Positions 13,969 to 39,339 of a DNA stretch of 45,799 bases are shown one piece after another; within the stretch, counting starts at the first letter, position 1; the number at the start of each line of letters is the position of its first letter. Source of the stretch: Planctomyces sp. (GTDB taxonomy: Bacteria > Planctomycetota > Planctomycetia > Planctomycetales > Planctomycetaceae); assembly GCA_027483145.1 (NCBI GenBank), contig JAIXVG010000434.1, positions 1-45,799 of the forward strand, in the 5' to 3' direction. The position numbers were made by a program, and so were the translations under genes. Under the pieces are notes generated by a model. That model saw only the letters and a program-made list of their open reading frames with translations, ran no database searches and was not told the origin of the DNA.

Positions 13969-15183
13969 TCAAGAGGCTGCGATCGTAGCCCAGACCTGAT
14001 TGGCCTGATTGATCAGGGCTAAGTCTTCGCAGCCTGCGAGGAGCCGCTCAACCTCGGCGGCTGACTCGAGTGGAATGCTGAAGAGGTCTTCGACCTGGTC
14101 GCCAGGCAAGCCGCTGAGGGTATAGAGCTGTGCGAAATCGGCCGCTTGTGCCCATTGAGTCGCTGGGACCATGTCCTTGGGCGCTAGCTGCTTGAGGTGC
14201 GGCGCACAATCGCGGGGGAGGCCTGCAGCCTGCACAAGCTGCATGCCGGGTCCCAATTCTGCCTGCAGGCTGGTCAGCAGGACAATTCGCCCACCTCGCT
14301 GGACGACTTGCCGGGCGGTTGCCAGTGCGCGGCCGACATCTTCCCAGGTTGCCGCATTGCCGTCGACGCTAGTCGCACTGACGACAACCGTTTCGACTCG
14401 AGTAGGAAACGAAGTTTTCCAGTACTGGGACAGCTTGTTACGGGCAGCCCGGGTGATTGCTTCGAGGCTGCCAACGAATACTTCGGCTGGTTGGTTGGGA
14501 GCAGCAGATGGGATTACCACAACACCAAACTGGACACCCAGCAGCCAACTGACTTCCTCTACAAGTTGCCGCCAAGGGCGATCGTCTTCCGGGTTGAGTT
14601 CGGTGTGACCAAGGGCGTGGGATCGGGCAATTGTCTCGGTATTGGACAGACCGGGAAAGATGGCTGCAGCGGGGGATCTGTAACCAAGTACCGGATCGAA
14701 CGCCAGCGTGCCAATCGGAAAAACAACATCTGCTTCAAGGGCGATGCGCGACAGGTAAACCCGCTCTCCGGAGAGGCTGGAAGCAAGATAGCCTGTGCTC
14801 TCTGCTGCGGTGGGATCGTGGATTTTCCAGGAGACGTCGGACCTGACCGCTGCGGGGAGATACTGCCGTGGGTCGGGCGGGGTATTTGACCAACTGGCAG
14901 GCTGTAACAGAGTCACATTCTGCGGCGAGACGCCGATGCGGGCCAATTCTTCCCAGACGGCGGCCAAAACGGTGCTGGTACCAGGGACGCCCCGATCGAG
15001 AACAATCACGATTTTATCTTCGGGCAAAACGGCTTGCCGCAAGGGTGGAAACTCGAGCGGCTGCTGAAACGCTTCAGTAAGGGCGGCCGTCCAGTCGGAT
15101 GACGGAGCAGGGCCGGAGAAATAGCTGGATGCAGGTTGGCCCAGGGACGAACCTTCCCACGTCATTCCCGGTCCATAGGTCAT
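13969..15183 (-). CDS. LarA-like (DUF2088) protein lacking the usual catalytic residues
   Basis: About 404 residues from the ATG at 15183; a TTG at 15213 is an alternative. The N-terminal half has the lactate-racemase fold signature VIVLDRGVPGTST (residues 59-71). The middle has IHDP (121-124) and the stretch GYRSPAAAIFPGLSNTETI (167-185), matching the LarA segment that normally reads GGRKSVLPGI. In LarA that Lys holds the nickel-pincer cofactor; here it is missing, and the GxHR-type His is replaced by PASW. By family knowledge it should therefore not be a working LarA racemase, though another reaction is possible. A HupE-type permease lies about 2 kb away. It is divergent from the ECF sigma gene. 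Confidence 0.8.
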   Translation of the reverse strand: MTYGPGMTWEGSSLGQPASSYFSGPAPSSDWTAALTEAFQQPLEFPPLRQAVLPEDKIVIVLDRGVPGTSTVLAAVWEELARIGVSPQNVTLLQPASWSNTPPDPRQYLPAAVRSDVSWKIHDPTAAESTGYLASSLSGERVYLSRIALEADVVFPIGTLAFDPVLGYRSPAAAIFPGLSNTETIARSHALGHTELNPEDDRPWRQLVEEVSWLLGVQFGVVVIPSAAPNQPAEVFVGSLEAITRAARNKLSQYWKTSFPTRVETVVVSATSVDGNAATWEDVGRALATARQVVQRGGRIVLLTSLQAELGPGMQLVQAAGLPRDCAPHLKQLAPKDMVPATQWAQAADFAQLYTLSGLPGDQVEDLFSIPLESAAEVERLLAGCEDLALINQANQVWATIAAS

Positions 15184-15523
15184 CAACTGCGACACTGCGC
15201 TCTTGCCTTTCAACTACTAAGGGACCTTTAAACCAGTCAGGTTGCCGGTTTTTTGCGTAAGGACGGGGGATTGTGTTGGGTCTCTTCCCGGGATCCTAAT
15301 TGCATCGCCCGTCGGCTACCAAACGGTTCCGGTGCGGGTACAGTAAATCAAATCGATGCAGGTCGGAAGGAATGGAGTACGCCGTAATGGCGATCGGGAA
15401 CATTTGATTGCCTTTGTGAGAGCCCGTCCGCGACACCTTTGATGTGGCGATCTCGCGAGGTCAAATTGAGGGCTTCGGACAGGCGCAACCGGTTATCAGG
15501 TAGGTTTTTGGAACGAACACTGA
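15184..15523. other. Divergent promoter region
   Basis: Separates the LarA-like gene (leftward) from the ECF sigma gene (rightward). No gene, repeat or clear promoter motif was recognised. The LarA-like protein may start at a TTG at 15213, inside this stretch. Confidence 0.4.
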
Positions 15524-16132
15524 GTGACTGAAGCGAGCGATGATGAACTGATGCTGATGCTCCAGGGGGGGGACTCTCAGGCGTTTCGGGCACTCGTCGA
15601 GAGGCATCAGCGGCCGCTGATGGGTTTCTTTGTTCGGCAGACCCGAGATCCGCAGTTGGCGGAAGATTTGACTCAGGAGACGTTGCTGCGGGTATACAAC
15701 CAGTCGTGGGACTATCTGCCACGAGGGCAGTTCCGGGGCTGGATGTTTCGGGTTGCCCGGAACTTACTGATTGACAACGTCCGGCGACGGTCGAGCGATG
15801 CCCTGGTTCACAGCGTGAAGGGAAGCAGCAGCGATGACGATGACGAACCGCTGCTGACATCGCTTTCGGCTGAAAGTCGTTCGCCTGACGATCAGGCGAG
15901 TATCGCCGAAGTGACCCGGGTGGTAGATGAGTTGTTGCCCGAATTGCCCGAAGAGCAGCGGCTGACCTTTCAGATGTATCACTTTCTGGGGCTGAGCCTT
16001 CCGGAAATTGCTGATTCTTTGGAAACGAACTTGCCGACGACCAAAAGCCGATTGCGACTGGCCCGGGAGAAGCTTCAGGACCAGTTACGGGCGAGGGGTT
16101 TTCGTGATCCGCAGCTTCCCGAAGCGGAATAG
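15524..16132 (+). CDS. ECF-type RNA polymerase sigma factor
   Basis: A 202-residue protein starting at GTG. Region 2 runs from about residue 20 to 90, with DLTQETLLRVY and GWMFRVARNLLIDNVRRR, the parts that bind core polymerase and the -10 element. Region 4 (about 135-190) has LPEEQRLTFQMYHFLGLSLPEIA and TTKSRLRLAREKL, a helix-turn-helix for the -35 element. The linker is longer than usual and acidic (SSSDDDDEP). No anti-sigma factor is adjacent, so how it is controlled is not visible. A PspA/IM30-like gene follows 210 bp downstream on the same strand, which hints at an envelope-stress role. Confidence 0.92.
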   Translation: MTEASDDELMLMLQGGDSQAFRALVERHQRPLMGFFVRQTRDPQLAEDLTQETLLRVYNQSWDYLPRGQFRGWMFRVARNLLIDNVRRRSSDALVHSVKGSSSDDDDEPLLTSLSAESRSPDDQASIAEVTRVVDELLPELPEEQRLTFQMYHFLGLSLPEIADSLETNLPTTKSRLRLAREKLQDQLRARGFRDPQLPEAE

Positions 16133-16342
16133 CGGTTGGTTTTTGCGAAGAGTTGAAAGGGTGTTGATCCGGCTCGGTTATTTTGGCGTTTGTCCCCCAA
16201 TGGCTATCGAACAGACCGCGCCCGGTTTGTGCAAAATTGTTTAGTATTCGTGATTCGATTGGTTTGCGGCAGCATTCTTGCCCCAGACCGCACCGCGACT
16301 GTGTGCAAATGTTCATGACTGTTTTGCCTGGAAGAGGCCGAG

Positions 16343-16894
16343 ATGACTTACTTCAGCCGATTGACCGATATTGTGACCTGTAACCTGTCGCGGCTGTTGG
16401 AGTCGGCTAGTGATCCCTGCCGAGCGATCGATGACATCATTCGCGAGATGGAGGAGGGGCTGGCTGGGGCAAAGCGGAGTGTTGGAGCAGCCAGAGGTGC
16501 AGAAGATCGAATTCGGGCAGAACTAAATCAGCATCGTGATCAGATCGAATTGTGGGCGACGCGTGCGCGGAACGAAGTGGCAGAGCACAACGAGATGGCT
16601 GCGCGGCAATCGTTGCTAAGAAAGCGAGAGCTACTGCACCTGGTCGAAGGGCTCGAACAGCAGCAAGAGGCTCATCGGAATACGGTCAACCATTTGTTGA
16701 CGATGCAACGGGCACTGGAAGCCCGGCTGTCTGAGGCGCTTCGAAAAAGATGCGAGCTGCATAGCGGCGACCTGGCGCGACTGGCCAGTGGAGACAACGC
16801 CCCCTGTTCCGATGAGGCCCACCAGCACATCGAGCTGGAGATGGAAGCGTTGCGCAGGGAAGTTCATGGTACTTCGGCGAGTGCGTCGCAATGA
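16343..16894 (+). CDS. Short PspA/IM30-family coiled-coil protein
   Basis: A 183-residue, almost fully helical protein. The N-terminus, YFSRLTDIVTCNLSRLLESASDP, and the next helix, AIDDIIREMEEGLAGAKRSV, match the start of PspA/IM30. Long charged coiled coils fill about residues 60-150. PspA/Vipp1 proteins bind damaged inner membrane and form ESCRT-III-like assemblies. This one is about 40 residues shorter than E. coli PspA, chiefly in the C-terminal helices. An SD-like AGAGG precedes the ATG. It follows the ECF sigma gene and may belong to its regulon. No PspBC or PspF partner is present. Confidence 0.82.
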   Translation: MTYFSRLTDIVTCNLSRLLESASDPCRAIDDIIREMEEGLAGAKRSVGAARGAEDRIRAELNQHRDQIELWATRARNEVAEHNEMAARQSLLRKRELLHLVEGLEQQQEAHRNTVNHLLTMQRALEARLSEALRKRCELHSGDLARLASGDNAPCSDEAHQHIELEMEALRREVHGTSASASQ

Positions 16895-17201
16895 CGAATG
16901 TGGCAAAGCCACATTAATGGTGCCGCGGCCAAGCAAGATGTTGTGTTGCGCGAAATGCAGGCCGGAAAGAGAGTGGCCAATCAACAAAACTTTCGCCATT
17001 TTGGCGGGGAAAAGTGGCTGAGTGTTGGCGATTGGCGACGGGACTGCCCACAATCATTTGTGACTGCTTGCGGGCGATCATGAGGAATTGTGGGCTGCGT
17101 CGTTTTTGTGGCCGTTTTTTTAAGTTCGTTGCGCCCATCGGTCACGTTCGCGGCGACTCGCGGTATTGAAGCGGCAAAGCTTTTCAATAGAGGCCTTATT
17201 G
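16895..17201. other. Intergenic region with a spaced inverted repeat
   Basis: No gene. GCCCACAAT (17046-17054) and ATTGTGGGC (17087-17095) form a perfect 9-bp inverted repeat with a 32-base gap, about 110 bp before the protease gene. It could be an operator or a leader structure. Confidence 0.4.
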
Positions 17202-19541
17202 ATGCAGTTTTTCAACGTGCCATCTTTCCCGGGGCAGAGGGCTTCGACTTTAACAAGTTTACAAGGGATTTTGTGGTGCACCTTGTTGTTGTGGTCATGC
17301 ACGGCTGGGCTGGCCAGCAGCTTAGTGTGGGCTGACGATGGCTTGAGGTCCGGAAAAGGCGATCAGTTCTTGCTCCCTGTCTCGGCCCTGACTCCTGAAA
17401 ATAAACTGGCAGAACGGCTGGTTGAAGATGTGGCGATTGAAGCCCGTCAGGCAGTAGTGGTGATTTCGGTGGCGGGCCGTAATGGCGCACGCGAAGGGTT
17501 GGGAAGTGGGGTGATCATTCATCCGCAAGGATTAGTGGCCACGAACCTGCATGTGATTGGGGAAGCAAGGCCCATTTCAGTCGAGCTTAGTGGCGGACGA
17601 AGCTTGCCCGTCGAGTCGATCCTGGCTACTGATCAATTGCGAGATTTAGCCATTCTGAAAGTGGCTGCAACGGACCTTCCATTCCTTCCGCTGGCAGACG
17701 ATCGAGAAGTACGCGACGGTCAGGCGGTTGTTGCGATCGGGAACCCGCTGGGTTTGGAACGAAGTGTGGTGTCGGGGGTTTTGTCGGGACGACGCGAGAT
17801 CGAGGGGCGGACCATGATGCAAGTGGCCGTCCCGATCGAGCGAGGGAATAGTGGCGGGCCGCTGCTCGATCGTTCGGGTCGGGTTGTTGGATTATTGACC
17901 CTGAAGAGTTTGCAAACGCAGAATCTGGGTTTTGCAGTGCCATCAACGGCGCTACTACCCCTGGTCGAGAATCCTAATCCCGTTCCACTTAAGAGGTGGT
18001 TAACGATTGGGGTGCTCGATGCCAACGAGTGGGTTCCTTTGGGAGATGCCGACTGGTCACAGCGCGCGGGGCGGGTGCGGGTGGCAGGTGTTGGTACTGG
18101 GTTTGGCGGCCGGGGGCTGTGTTTGTCCCAAGCTGACCTTCCACCGCTGCCATACGAATTGTCGGTCAAGGTTCGGTACGACGAAAAAGAGGGAGCGGCG
18201 GGCTTAGCGTTCTGCAGTGATGGTCGTGATAAGCACTACGGATTCTATTTGACGAACGGTGGGATGCGGCTGACCCGGTTTGATGGCCCCGATGTCTTTT
18301 CGTGGAAGATTCTTGCCGATATCAGGCCCCCACGGCTCGATACTGATGGGTGGATCGACTTGAAGGTGCGGATTGATGCAGAGCAGATTGTCTGTTACCT
18401 GAATGGCGACCAGGTTACGCAAACGAATGACCGAACCTATCGTGATGGGAAAGCTGGGCTGTGTAAGTTTCGAACAACAACTGCAGAGTTCCGTAGTTTC
18501 CGCGCCGGGGCCTATAGCAATGATGTCGAGGCGAACCGTGTTGCCACGCAGCGCGTGCGGGATGCGGCTGGCAAAGTGTTTGCCGGTGACCAGCGAGAGC
18601 GTGACTGGATTGCCGAGATCGCGGGGCAAGAGGCGATCGAGCCTGATCTGGAAGCCATGCTGACCTATGCCAAAGAGCTTGAGCAGCAGGCCGCGCGGCT
18701 GAAAAAGATTGCAACTCGAACACACGTGCGGCAGGTCCAGAAGCAATTGGCAGAACTGCTTAAAGGGAACGAAGCTGACTCGGTCGATTTGTGCCGGGCA
18801 GCGCTATTGATCTCGCGGCTGGATAACTCGGAACTTGATATTGAGGCCTACATGCGGCAGGTCGGCCGATTGAGCGAGCAGTTTCGAGCATCGATCGGCA
18901 GGGAAGCAACCGGGGCCGAGAAGCTGGTATCGCTCGACAAGTTACTGTTCAGCGAATTGGGCTTTCATGGGAGTCGGAACGACTACGATAACCGTGCGAA
19001 CAGCTATTTGAATGAAGTGCTTGATGATCGCGAAGGGCTGCCGCTGACCCTTGGAATTCTGTATATCGAGCTAGCCCGACGCGAGGGGGTCAAAGTGGCT
19101 GGGATTGGTTTGCCGGGGCACTTTGTGGTTAAGCATCTCTCGGCAGAGGATGGCCACCTGATTGATGTGTTTGAGAAGGGAAAGCGAATCAACTTGACCG
19201 ATGCAATTCGAATGGCGGTCAACAATAGTGAAGGGCCTTGGTCGGATGACTATCTCATCCCGATGAGTCCCGAAGCCATTCTGCAGCGGATGTTGCGAAA
19301 CCTGATTTCAAGCGCACGACGTGAACGTGATACCGAACGATTGTGGCGGTATGTGGATACCCAACTGCTGCTGAATCCATCGAGTGTTGAAGATCACTAT
19401 TATCGGGCAGCGTTGGCACTCGAAGATCGCGATTGGGATGCAGCCAGGGATGATGTCGATTGGCTGAAGAAGAACGGGGCAGGGCTGATTGACCCACGGG
19501 CGATTGATGAGTTGGAGGGGGTTGTGAATCGGCGTCGTTAG
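17202..19541 (+). CDS. Exported trypsin-like serine protease fused to a SirB1-type domain
   Basis: About 779 residues from the ATG at 17202, which has GAGG nine bases upstream; a TTG at 17166 is less likely. An N-terminal hydrophobic segment (about residues 22-44) acts as a signal peptide or anchor. Residues 65-255 form an HtrA/DegP-like trypsin fold with a complete triad: His117 (TNLHVIG), Asp148 (LRDLAIL) and Ser217 (RGNSGGPLL). Residues about 280-440 look like a LamG/DUF1080-type beta-sandwich. A helical stretch follows. Near residues 580-700 comes a SirB1/transglutaminase-like domain (GFHGSRNDYDNRANSYL, GLPLTLGILYIELAR, GLPGHFVVKH), then TPR-like helices. No PDZ domain was seen. Substrate is unknown. 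Confidence 0.85.
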   Translation: MQFFNVPSFPGQRASTLTSLQGILWCTLLLWSCTAGLASSLVWADDGLRSGKGDQFLLPVSALTPENKLAERLVEDVAIEARQAVVVISVAGRNGAREGLGSGVIIHPQGLVATNLHVIGEARPISVELSGGRSLPVESILATDQLRDLAILKVAATDLPFLPLADDREVRDGQAVVAIGNPLGLERSVVSGVLSGRREIEGRTMMQVAVPIERGNSGGPLLDRSGRVVGLLTLKSLQTQNLGFAVPSTALLPLVENPNPVPLKRWLTIGVLDANEWVPLGDADWSQRAGRVRVAGVGTGFGGRGLCLSQADLPPLPYELSVKVRYDEKEGAAGLAFCSDGRDKHYGFYLTNGGMRLTRFDGPDVFSWKILADIRPPRLDTDGWIDLKVRIDAEQIVCYLNGDQVTQTNDRTYRDGKAGLCKFRTTTAEFRSFRAGAYSNDVEANRVATQRVRDAAGKVFAGDQRERDWIAEIAGQEAIEPDLEAMLTYAKELEQQAARLKKIATRTHVRQVQKQLAELLKGNEADSVDLCRAALLISRLDNSELDIEAYMRQVGRLSEQFRASIGREATGAEKLVSLDKLLFSELGFHGSRNDYDNRANSYLNEVLDDREGLPLTLGILYIELARREGVKVAGIGLPGHFVVKHLSAEDGHLIDVFEKGKRINLTDAIRMAVNNSEGPWSDDYLIPMSPEAILQRMLRNLISSARRERDTERLWRYVDTQLLLNPSSVEDHYYRAALALEDRDWDAARDDVDWLKKNGAGLIDPRAIDELEGVVNRRR

Positions 19542-22203: not shown

Positions 22204-23766
22204 ATGGATTGCCTCATGTCGTATCACCTGATTGAGCTTGTCGAACAATTAGGATCACCGCACGTACTGGTGGTTGGAGACTTGATTCTCGACCGGTACA
22301 TCTGGGGTGAAGCAGAACGGATCAGCCAGGAGGCTCCGGTCATTCTGCTGCGAGAAGACCGGCAAGAGCATCGGCTAGGTGGGGCAGCGAATGTGGCCCA
22401 CATGCTGCGCGGGCTGGATGCTCAGGTGACCCTCGCGGGGCTGGTTGGCTCTGATGAAGATGGTCAGATCGCTCGAGCAGAATTGGAACGTCTGGGGATC
22501 GATCACTCGGCGACGCTGACCGATGCCTCCCGGCCAACAACGGTCAAAATTCGATTCATGGGGCGTGCTCAGTATCGCCATCCCCATCAAATGCTGCGTG
22601 TTGATCGGGAAGTTCGTACGGCGATCTCGGCTGAGTTAAGCGAAAAGCTGCTGGCCGATTTGCTTCCCAAATTGCCGCGCTATCAAGCGATTTTAATTAG
22701 CGACTATGCCAAGGGGGTTTGCGAAAAGAAGTTGCTTGCTCCGCTGATCGAAGCGGCCAAGGGGCTGGAGATTCCGGTCATCGTTGATCCGGCCAATCAT
22801 GGGAGCTGCAGCGCGTATCATGGTTGCACGGCGGCAACACCTAATCGGCTGGAAACAAGCCGCGCGACGGGGTTGGAAGTCAAGACGGTTGAAGAGGGGA
22901 TGGAAGCTGCGAAGCGGTTGTGTGCCGTGGCGAATCTGGATCATGCTTTCGTCACGCTTGATCGGGACGGGATTGTTGTTGGATACAAAACGGGCGAGGC
23001 GTCTCATTTTCCGACCCGGCCTCGCGAAGTGTGTGACATCACCGGCGCTGGCGACATGGTGCTGGCCATGATTGGTGTTGGGGCCGCTGCAGGGATTGCA
23101 CCTGATGACCTGGCCCGGCTGGCCAATGTGGCAGGTGGATTGGAAGTGGAACAGATTGGGGTGGTGCCGATCAGCCGCCGCGACATTCTGCAGGACTTAC
23201 TGCGTTGGAGTCGCCCGGAAGAATCGAAGTCGCGCCATGGCGGGAAAGTGGCTGACTTGGATGAATTACAGCGACACGTCTCGGCCAGGCGTAAAGCGGG
23301 TCAATCAATCGTGCTGACCAACGGCTGCTTCGACCTGCTGCATGTCGGGCATGTGACTTATCTGCAGGAAGCGGCCAAAGAAGGGGACTGCCTGATTGTC
23401 GCCCTGAATAGTGATGCCAGCGTGCGGCGTCTGGAAAAGGGGCCTGATCGTCCCATTTTTGATGAGCATTATCGTGCCCAGATGCTGGCAGCTCTGGAGG
23501 CAGTTGATTTTGTGGTGGTTTTTGATGAAGACACCCCCCATGCGGTCCTTGAAGCCATTCAGCCTGATGTGTTGGTGAAGGGCGGGACTTACTCTGTTGC
23601 TGACATTGTCGGACGGGAAGTAGTCGAGGCCTATGGTGGTCGCGTTAAGGCGATGGGCGCTGTCGAAGGCCTGTCGACTACGGACATTGTGCGTCGGTTA
23701 CGGCAAGTTTCGGCACCGACGCTCAAAATGCCAAGCATTACGATGCCAGAACGGAAAGCTGGATGA
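22204..23766 (+). CDS. hldE: Bifunctional heptose-7-phosphate kinase / heptose-1-phosphate adenylyltransferase
   Basis: A 520-residue cytoplasmic enzyme that phosphorylates D-glycero-D-manno-heptose 7-phosphate at C1 and later adenylylates heptose 1-phosphate, giving the precursor for LPS inner-core heptose. The N-terminal kinase (about residues 15-330) is PfkB-like, with VVGDLILDRYIWGE, the substrate motif GGAANVAHML and the catalytic DITGAGD (usually DTTGAGD). The C-terminal nucleotidyltransferase (about 365-505) has TNGCFDLLHVGHVTYL with the HxGH motif, and LEAIQPDVLVKGGTY. Another ATG at 22216 would shorten it by four residues; neither start has a clear ribosome site. First gene of the LPS-core operon; its end overlaps the next start by four bases. 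Confidence 0.95.
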   Translation: MDCLMSYHLIELVEQLGSPHVLVVGDLILDRYIWGEAERISQEAPVILLREDRQEHRLGGAANVAHMLRGLDAQVTLAGLVGSDEDGQIARAELERLGIDHSATLTDASRPTTVKIRFMGRAQYRHPHQMLRVDREVRTAISAELSEKLLADLLPKLPRYQAILISDYAKGVCEKKLLAPLIEAAKGLEIPVIVDPANHGSCSAYHGCTAATPNRLETSRATGLEVKTVEEGMEAAKRLCAVANLDHAFVTLDRDGIVVGYKTGEASHFPTRPREVCDITGAGDMVLAMIGVGAAAGIAPDDLARLANVAGGLEVEQIGVVPISRRDILQDLLRWSRPEESKSRHGGKVADLDELQRHVSARRKAGQSIVLTNGCFDLLHVGHVTYLQEAAKEGDCLIVALNSDASVRRLEKGPDRPIFDEHYRAQMLAALEAVDFVVVFDEDTPHAVLEAIQPDVLVKGGTYSVADIVGREVVEAYGGRVKAMGAVEGLSTTDIVRRLRQVSAPTLKMPSITMPERKAG

Positions 23767-24821
23767 AGCTGGCAGTTTTTCTGCCCAACTGGGTGGGCGA
23801 TGTGGTGATGGCAACCCCGGCGATCAGGGCCTTGCGACAGGGATTTCCTGGAGCCAGCCTGACGGGCGTGATGCGTCCTTATGTAGCCGATGTGCTGCGC
23901 GGGACCGACTTACTTGATGACGAAGTCTTTTATGCACCCAAAGGGGGCGATCGCAGCCAACGCCTTTGGTCCGTCATAAGGCGACTGCGAGCAGAGCGAT
24001 TTGATGCAGCGGTGCTGTTTCCTAATTCGCTTCATTCGGCAGGAGTAGCCTGGCTGGGGGGCTGCCGTCAACGATGGGGGTTTGCTCGAGACGGACGGGG
24101 TTGGCTGCTGACTCATCCGGTGCCGCCAAGGCCCAGAAAAGACCCTTATCCGGTTCTGCTGGAATACTTAAGGCTGGTCGGAACGATGGGTTGTCCCACG
24201 AGTTCGACCCAGATGGAACTGGCTATTACCAAGCCCGATCGGGAGGCGATTACCCAGTTTTGGAGCAAGCACCCCAACGTCAACCCGGCTGATGGGTTTG
24301 TGTGCCTTAATACCGGTGGAGCATTCGGGAGTGCGAAGAACTGGCCGATTGATCGATTCACCGAACTGGCCAAAGAGATTCGGCTGCGCTACAGGAAGAC
24401 AGTTCTGGTGCTATGCGGACCGGCAGAGCGGGAAAGTGCCAGAGAGATCGCTCGGAACGCTGGGCTGGATCGAGTGTTGTCGCTAGCGGATGAGACATTA
24501 AGTCTGGGCTTAACCAAGGTGGCTATTCGGGATTCGCAGTTACTTGTGACGACCGATTCGGGTCCCAGGCATTTTGCAGCGGCGTTTGGCATTCCAACGG
24601 TAGCACTCTTTGGGCCGACGCATCAGGCCTGGAGCGATACGTTCTCGCCAGTTGCTACGAACTTGCAAGCGAGTGTCCCCTGCGGCCCATGTCAGCAACG
24701 CGTCTGCCCATTGGCGCATCATCGATGTATGGACGAGCTAAGTGTCGAGTCGGTCATGGCAGCAGTAGAGGGAGTACTCGGTCGCCGAGACGTGATTCCG
24801 CTCAAGACTCGTTTTGCGTAG
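23763..24821 (+). CDS. waaF: ADP-heptose:LPS heptosyltransferase (WaaF type)
   Basis: A 352-residue GT9-family enzyme that should move heptose from ADP-heptose onto the LPS inner core at the cytoplasmic face of the inner membrane. Signs are the opening LAVFLPNWVGDVVMATPAIR, the central GGAFGSAKNWPIDRF, and the C-terminal donor-site region TTDSGPRHFAAAFGIPTVAL followed by FGPTHQAWSDTF. A Cys-rich tail, CGPCQQRVCPLAHHRC, follows as in WaaF. It starts in the ATGA overlap with hldE, so the two are translationally coupled. WaaC and WaaF types are hard to separate by eye; the sequence looks more WaaF-like. Confidence 0.9.
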   Translation: MKLAVFLPNWVGDVVMATPAIRALRQGFPGASLTGVMRPYVADVLRGTDLLDDEVFYAPKGGDRSQRLWSVIRRLRAERFDAAVLFPNSLHSAGVAWLGGCRQRWGFARDGRGWLLTHPVPPRPRKDPYPVLLEYLRLVGTMGCPTSSTQMELAITKPDREAITQFWSKHPNVNPADGFVCLNTGGAFGSAKNWPIDRFTELAKEIRLRYRKTVLVLCGPAERESAREIARNAGLDRVLSLADETLSLGLTKVAIRDSQLLVTTDSGPRHFAAAFGIPTVALFGPTHQAWSDTFSPVATNLQASVPCGPCQQRVCPLAHHRCMDELSVESVMAAVEGVLGRRDVIPLKTRFA

Positions 24822-24924
24822 GAGTGTACTGGGTTGCTAACGGTTAACGCTGCTTTGGACCAACAAGTGGTAGCTGCCGCTGTAATCAAATAGCGATTGG
24901 CAGTGTCGGAAGGAGGGGGAGCAG

Positions 24925-26097
24925 ATGCGGATTGGGCTAGTCATTTTGCATGCAGACCCACAGCGCGGCGGGGCTGAACGCTATACGGTCGACTTGGCAG
25001 GAGCGCTAGCGGCTGAAGGGGATGATGTCAGCCTGATTGCCAGCAGCTTTGGCGAGGTTCCTGCAGGGGTGAAAACGCTTGTCGCTGCATCCCCGGGCTG
25101 GACACGATCGGGGCGATACCTGCGGTTTCTGGGTTCGGTCGACCAGATACTTGATCGCGAACGATTCGATGTGGTTCATGCGGCGCTGCCAGTGCGGCGG
25201 TGCGATGTCTACCATCCGCATGCCGGGCTAGCGCTTGACGCCGTCAGGCAGGGGCACCAGAAAAGGACCGGCTGGGCACGGTGGTGGTCCCGAATTGGAA
25301 ATCGGTTAAACGGGCGTCGCCAGTTGTTTGCCAATGTTGAACAAAAGTTACTGGGAAGTGTTCAGCCACCGATTGTCATTTCGCTGTCGGACTATGTTGG
25401 GGCTGGGATTGCGGGGACGTATCGATTGCCAGCCAACCAGGTGGTCAAGCTGTTCAATGCGGTCGATATCAAGCGGTTTGATCCTGAGCGGATTGATTTA
25501 TCACGTGAACCGATTCGGGCCAGCTTGAATCTGGCGAGTGATGACGTTGCGGTCCTGATGATTGCCCAGGACTTCGAACGGAAAGGGCTGCCGGAAGCGC
25601 TGCGTGCTTTTGCGTCTGTTGCTGCGTCACGATTGAAGCTGATTGTGGTGGGTAAGCAGCCAGTAGCCCCTTATGAGAAGCTGGCCGAAGAGCTGAAGAT
25701 TTCTGATCGAGTGATCTTTGCCGGGCCAACAAAGGAACCGGAGCGGTTTTATGCTTCGGCAGACGCATTTATGCTGCCGACAAGACACGATCCTTGCAGC
25801 CTGGTGGTTTTGGAGGCGCTGGCGATGGGGCTTCCCGTTATCAGCACCCGCTTCAATGGGGCCTGCGAGATTATGACCGACGGAGAACATGGAGCCATCG
25901 TTGCGTCGGCTGATGACCACGCTGGTTTAGTGACGGCGCTGGCTGGGCTGTTGGATGACCAGCATCGCACCGAACAGCATGAGGCTTGCCTGGGGCTGCG
26001 CCAGCTCCTTTCGCATACACACCATTTGCGGCAATTGCGTGATATCTACAGCCAGGCCATGTCGCGCAGTTTACCTTCGCGTCGGCGGGCGGCTTAA
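24925..26097 (+). CDS. GT4-family glycosyltransferase, likely LPS core (WaaG-like)
   Basis: A 390-residue GT-B glycosyltransferase. The N-terminal acceptor half starts with VILHADPQRGGAERYTVDLA. The C-terminal donor half has LIVVGKQPVAPYEKLAEEL, then the family signature DPCSLVVLEALAMGLPVI, with the E-x7-E-type loop and a final GACEIM. Context and the overall pattern (CDVYHPHAG, FERKGLPEALRAF) resemble the core glucosyltransferase WaaG. Sugar and acceptor are inferred. A strong ribosome site, GGAAGGAGGGGGAG, precedes the ATG. It lies about 100 bp after waaF, and its stop codon overlaps the next start. Confidence 0.9.
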   Translation: MRIGLVILHADPQRGGAERYTVDLAGALAAEGDDVSLIASSFGEVPAGVKTLVAASPGWTRSGRYLRFLGSVDQILDRERFDVVHAALPVRRCDVYHPHAGLALDAVRQGHQKRTGWARWWSRIGNRLNGRRQLFANVEQKLLGSVQPPIVISLSDYVGAGIAGTYRLPANQVVKLFNAVDIKRFDPERIDLSREPIRASLNLASDDVAVLMIAQDFERKGLPEALRAFASVAASRLKLIVVGKQPVAPYEKLAEELKISDRVIFAGPTKEPERFYASADAFMLPTRHDPCSLVVLEALAMGLPVISTRFNGACEIMTDGEHGAIVASADDHAGLVTALAGLLDDQHRTEQHEACLGLRQLLSHTHHLRQLRDIYSQAMSRSLPSRRRAA

Positions 26098-26960
26098 TGT
26101 CAATTCGCCATTTAGCCAGCATTAGCCGGCAATTCAACAGTGAGTGGGTTGCACTAAACGGCGGGCAAGTTTATCTTGAAAAAAGGTGTCAGGAACCTTT
26201 TCAAAGGGTTCAGCTCGATTCATTCGAAGCGTTCTGGAGTCTGCAATCGGCTGAAGTGGCACGCGAGGTTGGGGAACGGCAGACCAGCCGGATCGAACTC
26301 TTACTGAGTGTCGAACATCGTGCGTTTTATCTCAAGCGGCATGGCCGACCACACTGGAAGGAATGGGTCAAGCCACTCTTGCGTCTGACCTGGCCCGTCT
26401 TGGGAGCTATTCCCGAATGGGAAGCGATTGCCCAATTTGAGAAGGCCGGTGTACCGACAATGCGGGGAGTGGCGTGTGGCTGGCAAGGTGGTCGATCGTT
26501 TCTGCTGACCGAGTCGCTCGAAGGTTACACCCGGGCCGATCACTGGCTGGAACAGGCGAAAAGCCGCGAGCAGCGAAACAAGTTGGTGGTTCAAGTGGCG
26601 GCTATCGTTGCGCGGATGCACTTAAATGGGTTGCATCATCAAGACCTCTACCTGTGCCACCTTTTACTGAAGTGGGGAGCAGACCGTAATGCTTGCGATA
26701 CTCGCCTGATTGATCTGGGGCGTGTACGAAAACATGGCCGACTACCACTGCGGTGGCGAATCAAAGACCTGGCTCAGTTATATTACTCGTGCCGTGGATT
26801 GCTTTCAGCGGTGGAGATGCTGCGATTCTGGCGAAGATACTGGAACGAATCGGGCGTCAGCAGGTCCCCATCGATCAAGCGAAGGGAACGCCGACTGATT
26901 GCCCGGATTGCCGCCAAGGCTAGCCGAATTGATCGGCACACTCGCAAGAATGACTTGTGA
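26097..26960 (+). CDS. InaA/WaaP-type lipopolysaccharide kinase
   Basis: A 287-residue protein of the Kdo/WaaP kinase superfamily, which phosphorylates LPS core sugars with ATP. The key part is the catalytic loop GLHHQDLYLCHLLL (usual form HRDLY.CHF), followed by RLIDLGRVRKHGRLPLRWRIKDLAQLYYS, whose Asp takes the place of the kinase DFG Asp. The N-terminus has FYLKRHGRPHW and WEAIAQFEKAGVPT, also typical. It begins at TAATG, sharing a base with the previous stop, so it is translationally coupled to the glycosyltransferase. Core phosphorylation usually stiffens the outer membrane by allowing divalent-cation bridges. Confidence 0.88.
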   Translation: MSIRHLASISRQFNSEWVALNGGQVYLEKRCQEPFQRVQLDSFEAFWSLQSAEVAREVGERQTSRIELLLSVEHRAFYLKRHGRPHWKEWVKPLLRLTWPVLGAIPEWEAIAQFEKAGVPTMRGVACGWQGGRSFLLTESLEGYTRADHWLEQAKSREQRNKLVVQVAAIVARMHLNGLHHQDLYLCHLLLKWGADRNACDTRLIDLGRVRKHGRLPLRWRIKDLAQLYYSCRGLLSAVEMLRFWRRYWNESGVSRSPSIKRRERRLIARIAAKASRIDRHTRKNDL

Positions 26961-36024: not shown

Positions 36025-39000
36025 ATGAAACGTGTGTTACTGGCCTGTGAACAATCTGACCGGCGGCAGCTACTTGACTCTCGACTTCGCACGGGTGACT
36101 GGGACTTGGTAACAGTCGGATCGGTCGATGAAGCGGTCGAGTTGCTCAATGGGCAGTTTTGCGAAATCGCACTGCTTTCGTCGGGATGCGCTGGGCTAGC
36201 AAAGCGGCTGGCAGAAGTTACTAATGCTCCTCCACCTCTATGTGCCTTGCTGGTCGAACCGGGTGATTTAGATGGTGCGATGGATGCATTAGCCAGTGGG
36301 GTGCGGCACGTCGCTTCGACCGTTCGAGCAACCGATGAACTGCGTGGCTGGATTGGTCAGTTGCTCAACGGAATGATAGAAGAGCAAGTTTCTCACCAGG
36401 CTGCGCATGTATCAACCGCGGCGCTGGGACTGGCGCTCCAAAGTGCTTATCAGGATGTCGCCTCCCTTAATCGCCGATTGGTCAGCGAGAACGTCCAGCG
36501 GCAACAAGCAGAACACGACCTGGAAGAATCGGAACGAGTTTATAAGTCGATTGTTGACAACTTGCCTCATTCGCTGTTCCGCAAGGATTTGTCAAGCCGA
36601 TTCACGTTCTGCAATCAACGGTTTTGCGATGTGTTGCATACAACTTGGCAAGAGTTGGAAGGGAAGACCGACTACGATTTCTTCCCTAAGGAACTGGCAG
36701 AGAAGTATCGGGCTGATGATCGTTACGTGTTTAAGTCGCGGCTCAGTTTTGAAACAGTTGAAGAATCGATTACTCGCACGGGGGAGCGGCGCTACATCCA
36801 TGTACTGAAGTCCCCAATTTTTGATGCGAACGGATACTGCGTCGGACTCCAGGGGATGTTCTCGGATGTGACCGAGCAAGAGTTAGCCGAGCGTAGCCTC
36901 GCACGTGAACGGTCGCTGCTGGAAACGCTCATGAAGACGATTCCTGACAGCATCTACTTCAAGGATGCAGCTGGAAAGTACTTGCGAATCAATCAGGCAA
37001 AAGCGGTGGCGTCTGGCCTCGCCGATGTGGAGGCAGGGATTGGCCGGTCTGATCATGAATTCTTTACGGCGGACTGTGCGGCCCAGGCCCAACAGGATGA
37101 TGATCTAGTAATGGTTTCGGGTGAGCCGATTATTGGTCAAGAAGAGCTGCTGACCTGGCTGGATGGTCACAAATGCTGGATGTCGACAACGAAGCTTCCT
37201 CTGCGCGATGTCGATGGGCAAGTGGTGGGAACATTTGGTGTTTCGCGTGATATCACTGGGGCACGGCAGGCGGCTGAAGCATTGAAGGATGCAAAAGAGG
37301 CAGCCGAATCGGCCAGCCGGGCCAAGAGCGATTTTCTGGCGAATATGAGCCACGAAATTCGAACGCCACTTAATGCCATTATTGGCATGACCGAGCTGGT
37401 CCTTGATACGCCCCTGAACATCGGCCAGCGAGAGTATCTGCGAATTGTGCAGGAATCGGGTGAGTCGCTGCTCGCGGTCATCAACGATATTCTTGATTTT
37501 TCAAAGATCGAAGCTGGTCGGCTGTCACTGGAAGAAACATCGTTCGACCTGCGCGAAATGGTTGGCGACACCATGAAGTCGCTGGCAGTCAGGGCGCACA
37601 AGAAACATCTTGAGCTGGCATGCCATGTTGCGCCTGCTATTCCGCAATTGGTCATCGGGGACCCCACTCGCCTGCGGCAAGTCATCTTAAACCTGGTCGG
37701 GAATGCGATTAAGTTTACCGAAGCAGGCGAAGTGGTGCTCGATATCAGCTTGTCTCTTAAACCGGCCCAATCGGAAGACTTGCTCCGACTTCATTTTGAA
37801 GTACGAGACACGGGGATCGGTATCCCGGAAGAAAAGTACGAAGCGATTTTTGAGGCGTTCGAGCAGGCCGACACTTCGACAACGCGTAAGTATGGTGGGA
37901 CAGGACTGGGACTAGCCATCTCGTCGCGCCTGGCAGAACTGATGGGGGGGCCAATTTGGGTCGAAAGCGAAGTTGGGAAGGGAAGTACGTTCCACTTTGA
38001 AATTGAAGTGGGTACCGATGCAACGCTTGAAGCTGCCAGCGACATTCATCCGGTTGAGCTGGCCGGGATTCGAGTTCTGATTGTTGATGACAATTCTACG
38101 AATCGGCTGATCCTGGAAGAGATGTTCAATAACTGGGGGATGCGACCTCGCGCTGTCGAATCAGTCGATGCCGCGATTCGAGAGATTCAGTTTGCAGGAG
38201 ACCAGGGAGCCCAATTCTCGCTGTTGGTGACCGATGCTCATATGCCCGAACGGGACGGGTTTGACTTGTGCCGCTATTTGCAGCAAGCCCCGGGATCGGG
38301 TGGCAGCATTATTATGATGCTTACGTCGGGTGATCGACCTGAAGACATCACTCTCTGCCAGGAACTGGGGATAGCCGCCTATCTCATCAAACCGGTCAAG
38401 CAGTCAGAGCTGTTCGACGCGATTATTCGACTGATGGCCCGCCAAGGGGTTGAGTCTTCAACTCCTGTAGCTGCAACACCTGGGAGTCAGATTCCACGTC
38501 GCATCCTGCTGGCTGAAGACAGCGTCGTTAATCAGAAAGTGGCGATTGGGCTTCTTTCGAAATGGGGTCATACAATCACGGTGGCTAACAACGGCCGCGA
38601 AGCCTTGGAAAACCGCCAAACCGGCGAGTTCGATCTCATTTTGATGGACGTCCAGATGCCCGAACTTGATGGGCTGGAAGCGACGGCTGCGATACGCGAG
38701 TGGGAATCGTCCCGAGGTCTGCACATCCCGATTGTGGCCATGACTGCCCACGCACTGCAGGGAGATCGCGAGAAGTGCCTCGAAGCGGGGATGGACGACT
38801 ACCTAATGAAGCCGATTCGGTCTTCACAGCTTTTTCAGATGGTCGAACTGCGAGCCGCCCTTCCTCGCGCTGTAATGTCTGTCGTCTCGCAACCGGATCA
38901 GACCGATAGCGGGCAGGCAAGTCTGGATGTAAGTCCCAAGCTCCTCGATCAGGGAGCCCAAGAGCAAGAGATGATGCCGTTGGGTCATCCCACTTACATC

Positions 39001-39339
39001 GATTGGGACCAGGCAAGGCATTCGGTCGATGGAGATGCCGATTTGCTCAATGTTGTTGCAACTGCCTCAACGGAAGAGATTCCCCTGCTCCTTAAGTCAT
39101 TGGAAAATGCTTTGACGCAGGGTGACAATATTGGTTTTCGTCGGGCAGTCCATACCCTGAAAAATGGCTTCGGAACGCTCGGTGCAAGGGAAGCCGCTCG
39201 ACTGGCAGCAATCATGGAACAAGAGGCGGCCAGGGCACAATCCGTCGATCAGGATAAACTAAAAGAGCTGAAAGACGTGGCCGAAAGCGTGCTAAAGCAA
39301 TTGAACACGTTTCTGCATGGCGAACCACTGTCGAAATAA
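36025..39339 (+). CDS. Hybrid sensor histidine kinase with pseudo-receiver, two PAS, two receivers and HPt
   Basis: 1104 residues, no membrane helix, so a cytoplasmic sensor. In order: a receiver-like fold lacking acidic residues and phosphoacceptor (1-115, pseudo-receiver); a coiled coil (135-172); PAS 1 (173-285, KTDYDFFP); PAS 2 (298-412, FKDAAGKYLRIN); HisKA with His443 (NMSHEIRTPLN); HATPase with the N-box (Asn556/Asn560), DTGIGI and GGTGLGL; receiver 1 with Asp737 and KP at 789-790; receiver 2 with Asp875 and KP at 929-930; HPt with His1043 (AVHTLKNGFG). All residues needed for a His-Asp-His phosphorelay are present. AAGGA lies eight bases before the ATG, 31 bp after the upstream REC-ATPase gene. 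The signal is unknown. Confidence 0.93.
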   Translation: MKRVLLACEQSDRRQLLDSRLRTGDWDLVTVGSVDEAVELLNGQFCEIALLSSGCAGLAKRLAEVTNAPPPLCALLVEPGDLDGAMDALASGVRHVASTVRATDELRGWIGQLLNGMIEEQVSHQAAHVSTAALGLALQSAYQDVASLNRRLVSENVQRQQAEHDLEESERVYKSIVDNLPHSLFRKDLSSRFTFCNQRFCDVLHTTWQELEGKTDYDFFPKELAEKYRADDRYVFKSRLSFETVEESITRTGERRYIHVLKSPIFDANGYCVGLQGMFSDVTEQELAERSLARERSLLETLMKTIPDSIYFKDAAGKYLRINQAKAVASGLADVEAGIGRSDHEFFTADCAAQAQQDDDLVMVSGEPIIGQEELLTWLDGHKCWMSTTKLPLRDVDGQVVGTFGVSRDITGARQAAEALKDAKEAAESASRAKSDFLANMSHEIRTPLNAIIGMTELVLDTPLNIGQREYLRIVQESGESLLAVINDILDFSKIEAGRLSLEETSFDLREMVGDTMKSLAVRAHKKHLELACHVAPAIPQLVIGDPTRLRQVILNLVGNAIKFTEAGEVVLDISLSLKPAQSEDLLRLHFEVRDTGIGIPEEKYEAIFEAFEQADTSTTRKYGGTGLGLAISSRLAELMGGPIWVESEVGKGSTFHFEIEVGTDATLEAASDIHPVELAGIRVLIVDDNSTNRLILEEMFNNWGMRPRAVESVDAAIREIQFAGDQGAQFSLLVTDAHMPERDGFDLCRYLQQAPGSGGSIIMMLTSGDRPEDITLCQELGIAAYLIKPVKQSELFDAIIRLMARQGVESSTPVAATPGSQIPRRILLAEDSVVNQKVAIGLLSKWGHTITVANNGREALENRQTGEFDLILMDVQMPELDGLEATAAIREWESSRGLHIPIVAMTAHALQGDREKCLEAGMDDYLMKPIRSSQLFQMVELRAALPRAVMSVVSQPDQTDSGQASLDVSPKLLDQGAQEQEMMPLGHPTYIDWDQARHSVDGDADLLNVVATASTEEIPLLLKSLENALTQGDNIGFRRAVHTLKNGFGTLGAREAARLAAIMEQEAARAQSVDQDKLKELKDVAESVLKQLNTFLHGEPLSK

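Follow-up and report, generated by a model that had tools for sequence, protein, structure and literature searches.

Proteases of the HtrA/Deg group, such as DegP, DegS and HtrA1, have at least one C-terminal PDZ domain. PDZ domains catch peptide ends and switch the protease on, and the enzymes are generally oligomers, with the trimer as the basic unit. The planctomycete protein described here shares with them the trypsin fold, the H-D-S triad, the GNSGG motif and probable export, but it has no detectable PDZ domain.

The SirB1/Transglut_core2 family (PF13369) includes E. coli YchA and human FBXO21. One account states that the function of this family is unknown, describes FBXO21 as a ubiquitin ligase component with an inactive Transglut_core2 domain and no catalytic Cys, reports that human menin also lacks the catalytic Cys, and discusses papain-like families, menin included, in which Ser replaces Cys (PMC10318531). 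Menin (PF05053) combines an inactive transglutaminase-like domain with TPR, and its pocket is reported to take KMT2A peptides beside a transglutaminase-like 'thumb' (PMC13256885). SirB1 and Transglut_core2 are also named in a figure legend on candidate CLP-protease interactor families in a chloroplast study (PMC8889267). As for CBM66, its members reportedly bind fructans, with a trimmed xanthan as the ligand in one case (PMC11002231). No published description of a protease-CBM66-like-SirB1 fusion was found in the literature searched, and the terms transglutaminase, SirB1, TPR and LamG are absent from the text of a 2008 survey of domain architectures among prokaryotic serine proteases (PMC2605481).

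Architecture and distribution of the fusion protein

The window, i.e. the whole stretch of DNA that was analysed, consists of positions 1 to 45,799 of contig JAIXVG010000434.1 of Planctomyces sp. The fusion gene is one open frame of 779 aa, for which the frame also allows an alternative TTG start upstream, at 17166. Its features are as follows:

17202..19541, + strand: whole gene, 779 aa, with probable export signal, HtrA-type protease, CBM66-like domain, helical linker, SirB1 domain and TPR-like helices (frame, Pfam, model)
17202..17336, + strand: probable N-terminal export signal, residues 1-45, with a hydrophobic stretch from residue 23 and low model confidence (hydrophobicity)
17421..17981, + strand: trypsin-fold HtrA-type protease domain, residues 74-260 (Pfam, NCBIfam, HtrA1 fold match)
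17550..17552, + strand: catalytic His117 (alignment, 72/72)
17643..17645, + strand: catalytic Asp148 (alignment, 72/72)
17850..17852, + strand: catalytic Ser217 in GNSGG (alignment, 72/72)
18024..18515, + strand: CBM66-like beta-sandwich, residues 275-438, with conserved Cys307 (62/72) and Cys398 (72/72) (profile, fold, alignment)
18522..18761, + strand: helical linker, residues 441-520, with one long helix at 479-520 and low confidence at 441-490 (model)
18714..19517, + strand: region whose predicted fold was superposed on human menin (7uj4), residues 505-772
18846..19298, + strand: SirB1/Transglut_core2 domain, residues 549-699 (Pfam)
19041..19043, + strand: Pro614, at the place aligned with the transglutaminase catalytic Cys (weak profile alignment; Pro 72/72)
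19119..19121, + strand: His640, transglutaminase-type His, kept in 68/72 (alignment)
19164..19166, + strand: Asp655, transglutaminase-type Asp, kept in 72/72 (alignment)
19311..19535, + strand: TPR-like helices, residues 704-778 (weak Pfam match, model, relatives)

The original prediction, made from the DNA letters, was of a single exported protein in which a trypsin-like protease is followed by a beta-sandwich-like region and then by a SirB1-type domain with TPR-like helices. Pfam, NCBIfam and the structural model bear out this order. The AlphaFold2 model of the full-length protein, for which 72 family sequences served as input, has a pLDDT of 86 and a pTM of 0.84. Because HtrA chains fill the fold-search list of the full model, the C-terminal 518 residues were also folded separately (pLDDT 88.5, pTM 0.86). 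A hydrophobic N-terminal stretch is present in 69 of 80 relatives (the best 80 of 540 places in a second collection), and the protein is probably exported, judging from hydrophobicity alone.

A survey of this domain order found the full-length fusion, defined as a match over at least 680 query residues, in 31 of the 392 genomes of the phylum sample, among them 23 of the 28 genomes of the window genome's own taxonomic family. Partial matches that end at contig ends in two genomes (G281 and G349) were left out of this count. The second collection has 540 places whose encoded protein is related to the query over at least part of its length; each of the best 80 aligns over at least ~650 query residues, with 41-52% identity and the same domain order. 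Among ten loci scanned out of these 80, Trypsin_2 and Transglut_core2 are found in all ten. The fusion is thus a conserved family rather than a local oddity. It could in principle be an artefact of a frameshift or of two joined genes, which was the concern attached to the original prediction, or of wrong assembly. Nothing was found in favour of an artefact, however: several single-contig genomes carry the fusion (for example G373, at 51% identity), which excludes frameshift and mis-assembly, and its full-length presence in 31 of 392 genomes and at the best 80 loci of the second collection makes an artefact so improbable that it can be set aside.

The three domains also evolve as a unit: a search for the middle domain in 40 genomes, those of the own and near relatives, gave 22 strong matches (E no higher than 2e-68), every one in a frame of at least 501 aa, versus five weak matches elsewhere. 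SirB1 domains as such are widespread, being present in 241 of the 392 genomes of the phylum sample, and the fusion is the rarer form. Other long SirB1 frames (G044, G201, G189, G001, G063, G141) are not claimed as further fusions; their N-terminal parts look like chance frames in GC-rich DNA.

In the tree, the window protein sits on a long branch, grouped with a Planctomycetaceae row that lies next to Schlesneria rows. By their labels, the best 80 of the 540 places comprise 73 planctomycete members, five Verrucomicrobiota members and two given only as 'bacterium'. The five Verrucomicrobiota-labelled members (L113, L120, L124, L126, L135) form one clade with a support of 96; the labels are those of the depositors, and the clade may reflect either spread beyond planctomycetes or wrong labels.

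The HtrA-type protease, its CBM66-like partner and the gene neighbourhood

The full triad that had been predicted, His117/Asp148/Ser217, is located in the sequence (H117 in TNLHV, D148 in DLAILK and S217 in GNSGGP) and is invariant in two alignments of family members (30/30 and 72/72). Trypsin_2 matches residues 101-231 with an E-value of 7.8e-30, and the best fold match of the protease is the HtrA1 catalytic domain 3tjn (Z 29.0 over 188 residues, 33% identity). On these three grounds, there appears to be strong selection for proteolysis. The NCBIfam Do/HtrA models cover only residues ~72-256, with scores far under their whole-protein cut-offs. The absence of PDZ and the replaced C-terminus were likewise borne out, in that no PDZ model matches the fusion protein at E up to 1 in Pfam, and none was found via NCBIfam. 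Where HtrA proteases have PDZ domains, the segment behind the protease is, by profile and by fold, CBM66-like, and the SirB1 domain follows.

The middle domain had been called LamG-like. It is indeed a beta-sandwich, but it is better described as CBM66-like or 3-keto-disaccharide-hydrolase-like. In the window protein it stays below the Pfam cut-off, with weak matches over residues 309-418 to PF06439 (0.019) and Laminin_G_3 (0.034), while PF06439 is above cut-off in eight of ten relatives scanned (ten loci out of the best 80). Against the CBM66 of B. subtilis levanase (SacC), the domain gives an E-value of 5e-8 in profile comparison and a Z of 22.1 over 151 residues at 1.9-2.0 Å in fold comparison. 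The beta-sandwich fold is thus shared with CBM66 and the PF06439 3-keto-disaccharide hydrolase-like domains, but the identity to the SacC domain is 18%, and the fusion's domain sits in a protease whereas that of SacC sits in a glycoside hydrolase. Cys307 (18120-18122) and Cys398 (18393-18395) possibly form a disulfide. Apart from CBM66 and levanases, the Foldseek matches of the C-terminal model are mostly longer proteins that include a jelly roll, with low TM-scores and with toxin receptor-binding domains among them; they were put down to a shared common fold.

The predicted fold makes sugar binding plausible, and no more than plausible. It allows an alternative account of the whole protein, in which the enzyme would be dedicated to the maturation or shedding of one particular surface glycoprotein, would owe its specificity mainly to the CBM66-like domain, and would not serve general quality control. 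The strength of the fold match, the good conservation of the domain (67% mean column identity among 25 members) and the fact that no conserved chaperone gene set adjoins the fusion gene at the loci searched argue for this account. However, no conserved target gene adjoins it either, and such beta-sandwiches are often purely structural, the Foldseek matches including jelly rolls of other functions. We consider this account unlikely.

More generally, no conserved neighbour of the fusion gene emerged when the window's open reading frames were searched against 20 loci and the best 80 named loci, 44 of these 100 loci being shorter than 15 kb. Directly upstream in the window, on the same strand and ~300 bases before the protease gene, lie genes for an ECF sigma factor and a PspA/IM30-like protein (15524-16894). 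An envelope-stress theme is tempting here, yet this pair does not recur as such elsewhere in the family: the PspA-like gene is found at 0/100 and the ECF sigma factor gene, weakly, at 4/100. Genes for a rhomboid protein, a TGS-GTPase and an M16-peptidase occur downstream at 13/80, 8/80 and 8/80 loci, respectively, and are absent from the window locus; we leave them as lineage-specific.

Elsewhere in the window, a lipopolysaccharide-core-type run (22204-26960) contains, by domain scan, a glycosyltransferase and a Kdo/WaaP-type kinase, preceded by frames that look like HldE and a WaaF-type heptosyltransferase. A nickel-dependent lactate/malate racemase-like protein, with Lar_N over the Pfam cut-off, is encoded at 13969-15213, and a large hybrid sensor kinase with PAS, receiver and Hpt domains at 36025-39339.

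The SirB1 domain and the helices behind it

The predicted SirB1 domain is clearly found in the domain search: Transglut_core2 matches residues 549-699 with an E-value of 1.2e-38 and 132 bits against a cut-off of 23.5, and NCBIfam also assigns the C-terminal part to SirB1. Whether its catalytic Cys and His are kept had been raised with the original prediction, and the answer is divided. His640 and Asp655 are kept in 68 and 72 of 72 members, respectively, while the Cys is absent, with Pro614 at the aligned place in 72 of 72. The register of Pro614 comes from a weak profile alignment to transglutaminases (probability 17%, E 0.0015), with a profile built from ~18 usable of 26 transglutaminase-core stretches; both the family motif and a helix that starts at 614 in the model are consistent with it, which falls short of proof. 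In the 30-member alignment, the only Cys column of the SirB1 part is at residue 739, and it is variable. The same Pro-His-Asp is seen in 13 of 13 SirB1 proteins outside the fusion among the relatives searched, whose open frames are mostly 283-317 aa, and in E. coli YchA the three triad positions are occupied by Ala, Gln and Asn. The loss of the Cys is therefore a trait of the SirB1 family and not of the fusion, and transglutaminase activity of the domain is very improbable.

The retained His640 and Asp655, kept likewise in the 13 non-fused proteins, could instead point to an enzymatic domain that uses a different nucleophile, in which case the protein would both cut its clients and modify them by cross-linking or deamidation; papain-like families in which Ser stands in for Cys, menin among them, have been discussed (PMC10318531). 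The invariant Pro speaks against this, as do the triad positions of YchA and the variability of residue 616 nearby (T 25, S 4, A 1; n=30), which is thus not a fixed nucleophile, and we regard such a dual enzyme as highly improbable.

The most conserved SirB1 positions are H589, G590, R592, N600, D609, R610, E611, G612, P614, P638 and D655. The motif D609-R610-E611-G612 is invariant in the 72 fusions but not in the non-fused SirB1 proteins compared. Behind the domain, the model has helices over residues 690-778, and TPR_9 matches residues 704-753 (E 4.7e-4), under the cut-off in the window protein and above the 35-bit cut-off in five of ten relatives scanned. The fusion protein shares with YchA and FBXO21 the same Pfam domain, the lack of the catalytic Cys and, probably, TPR-like helices behind the domain, but differs from them in that a protease and a beta-sandwich precede it.

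Residues 505-772 superpose on human menin (7uj4) with a Z of 15.0 over 245 residues at 4.8 Å and 11% identity, a score to be read against the fact that mostly helical models can reach a best Z of 14 without clear relatives. The menin family PF05053 has no match in the fusion protein at E up to 1 in Pfam. The likeness, i.e. an inactive transglutaminase-like domain with TPR, is one of predicted fold only. Menin is a nuclear eukaryotic protein, and the identity is 10-11%.

A possible peptide grip in place of PDZ

The architecture is well documented; the mechanism is one that we infer. The HtrA-type domain would cut substrates in the envelope, and the CBM66-like domain may anchor the enzyme at, or sense, a surface glycan. 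By analogy with menin, the SirB1-TPR module would be a catalytically dead transglutaminase fold with a menin-like pocket in which a short peptide stretch of the client is held, and would thereby take over the role in recruitment or activation that falls to PDZ domains in HtrA enzymes. The dead transglutaminase and TPR of menin pocket short peptides, and FBXO21 acts in a ubiquitin ligase. Most simply, clients would be gripped by the C-terminal module while the CBM66-like part would place the enzyme at a surface glycan, so that the sugar-binding-like and menin-like modules most likely share the recruiting work of PDZ domains. The originally suggested link to protein quality control is a putative one. 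Taken as a whole, the explanation of an exported, glycan-addressed protease whose clients are gripped by SirB1-TPR is put forward tentatively, with somewhat less than an even chance of being right. It is weakened by the distance of the menin match, by neighbour genes that point to no pathway, and by the His and Asp kept without the Cys, which a pure scaffold would not need.

Alternatively, the C-terminal module may regulate or assemble the protease, through oligomers or active-site shielding as PDZ domains do in DegP, without binding clients. HtrA enzymes are generally oligomeric, the modules are joined by the long helix 479-520 in the model, and the confident overall model (pTM 0.84) suggests a fixed domain arrangement. 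On the other hand, judged from the sequence, the most conserved SirB1 positions surround the former active-site segment, a placement more in line with a pocket for a ligand than with an oligomer interface. We hold regulation or assembly to be a real but rather unlikely option.

Transglut_core2/SirB1 domains might even be general peptide-grip modules for proteolysis, with those of FBXO21 picking clients for ubiquitination and the grip here replacing PDZ while a glycan-binding domain adds an address; this extension is possible, though doubtful. If true, it would explain mechanistically what this family does, its function being stated as unknown (PMC10318531). Transglut_core2 spans E. coli to human FBXO21, and its fusion to a protease with a simple readout lets the role of the domain be tested. 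An HtrA-type protease domain can couple to a module other than PDZ, and the fusion names a conserved, apparently unstudied planctomycete protease.
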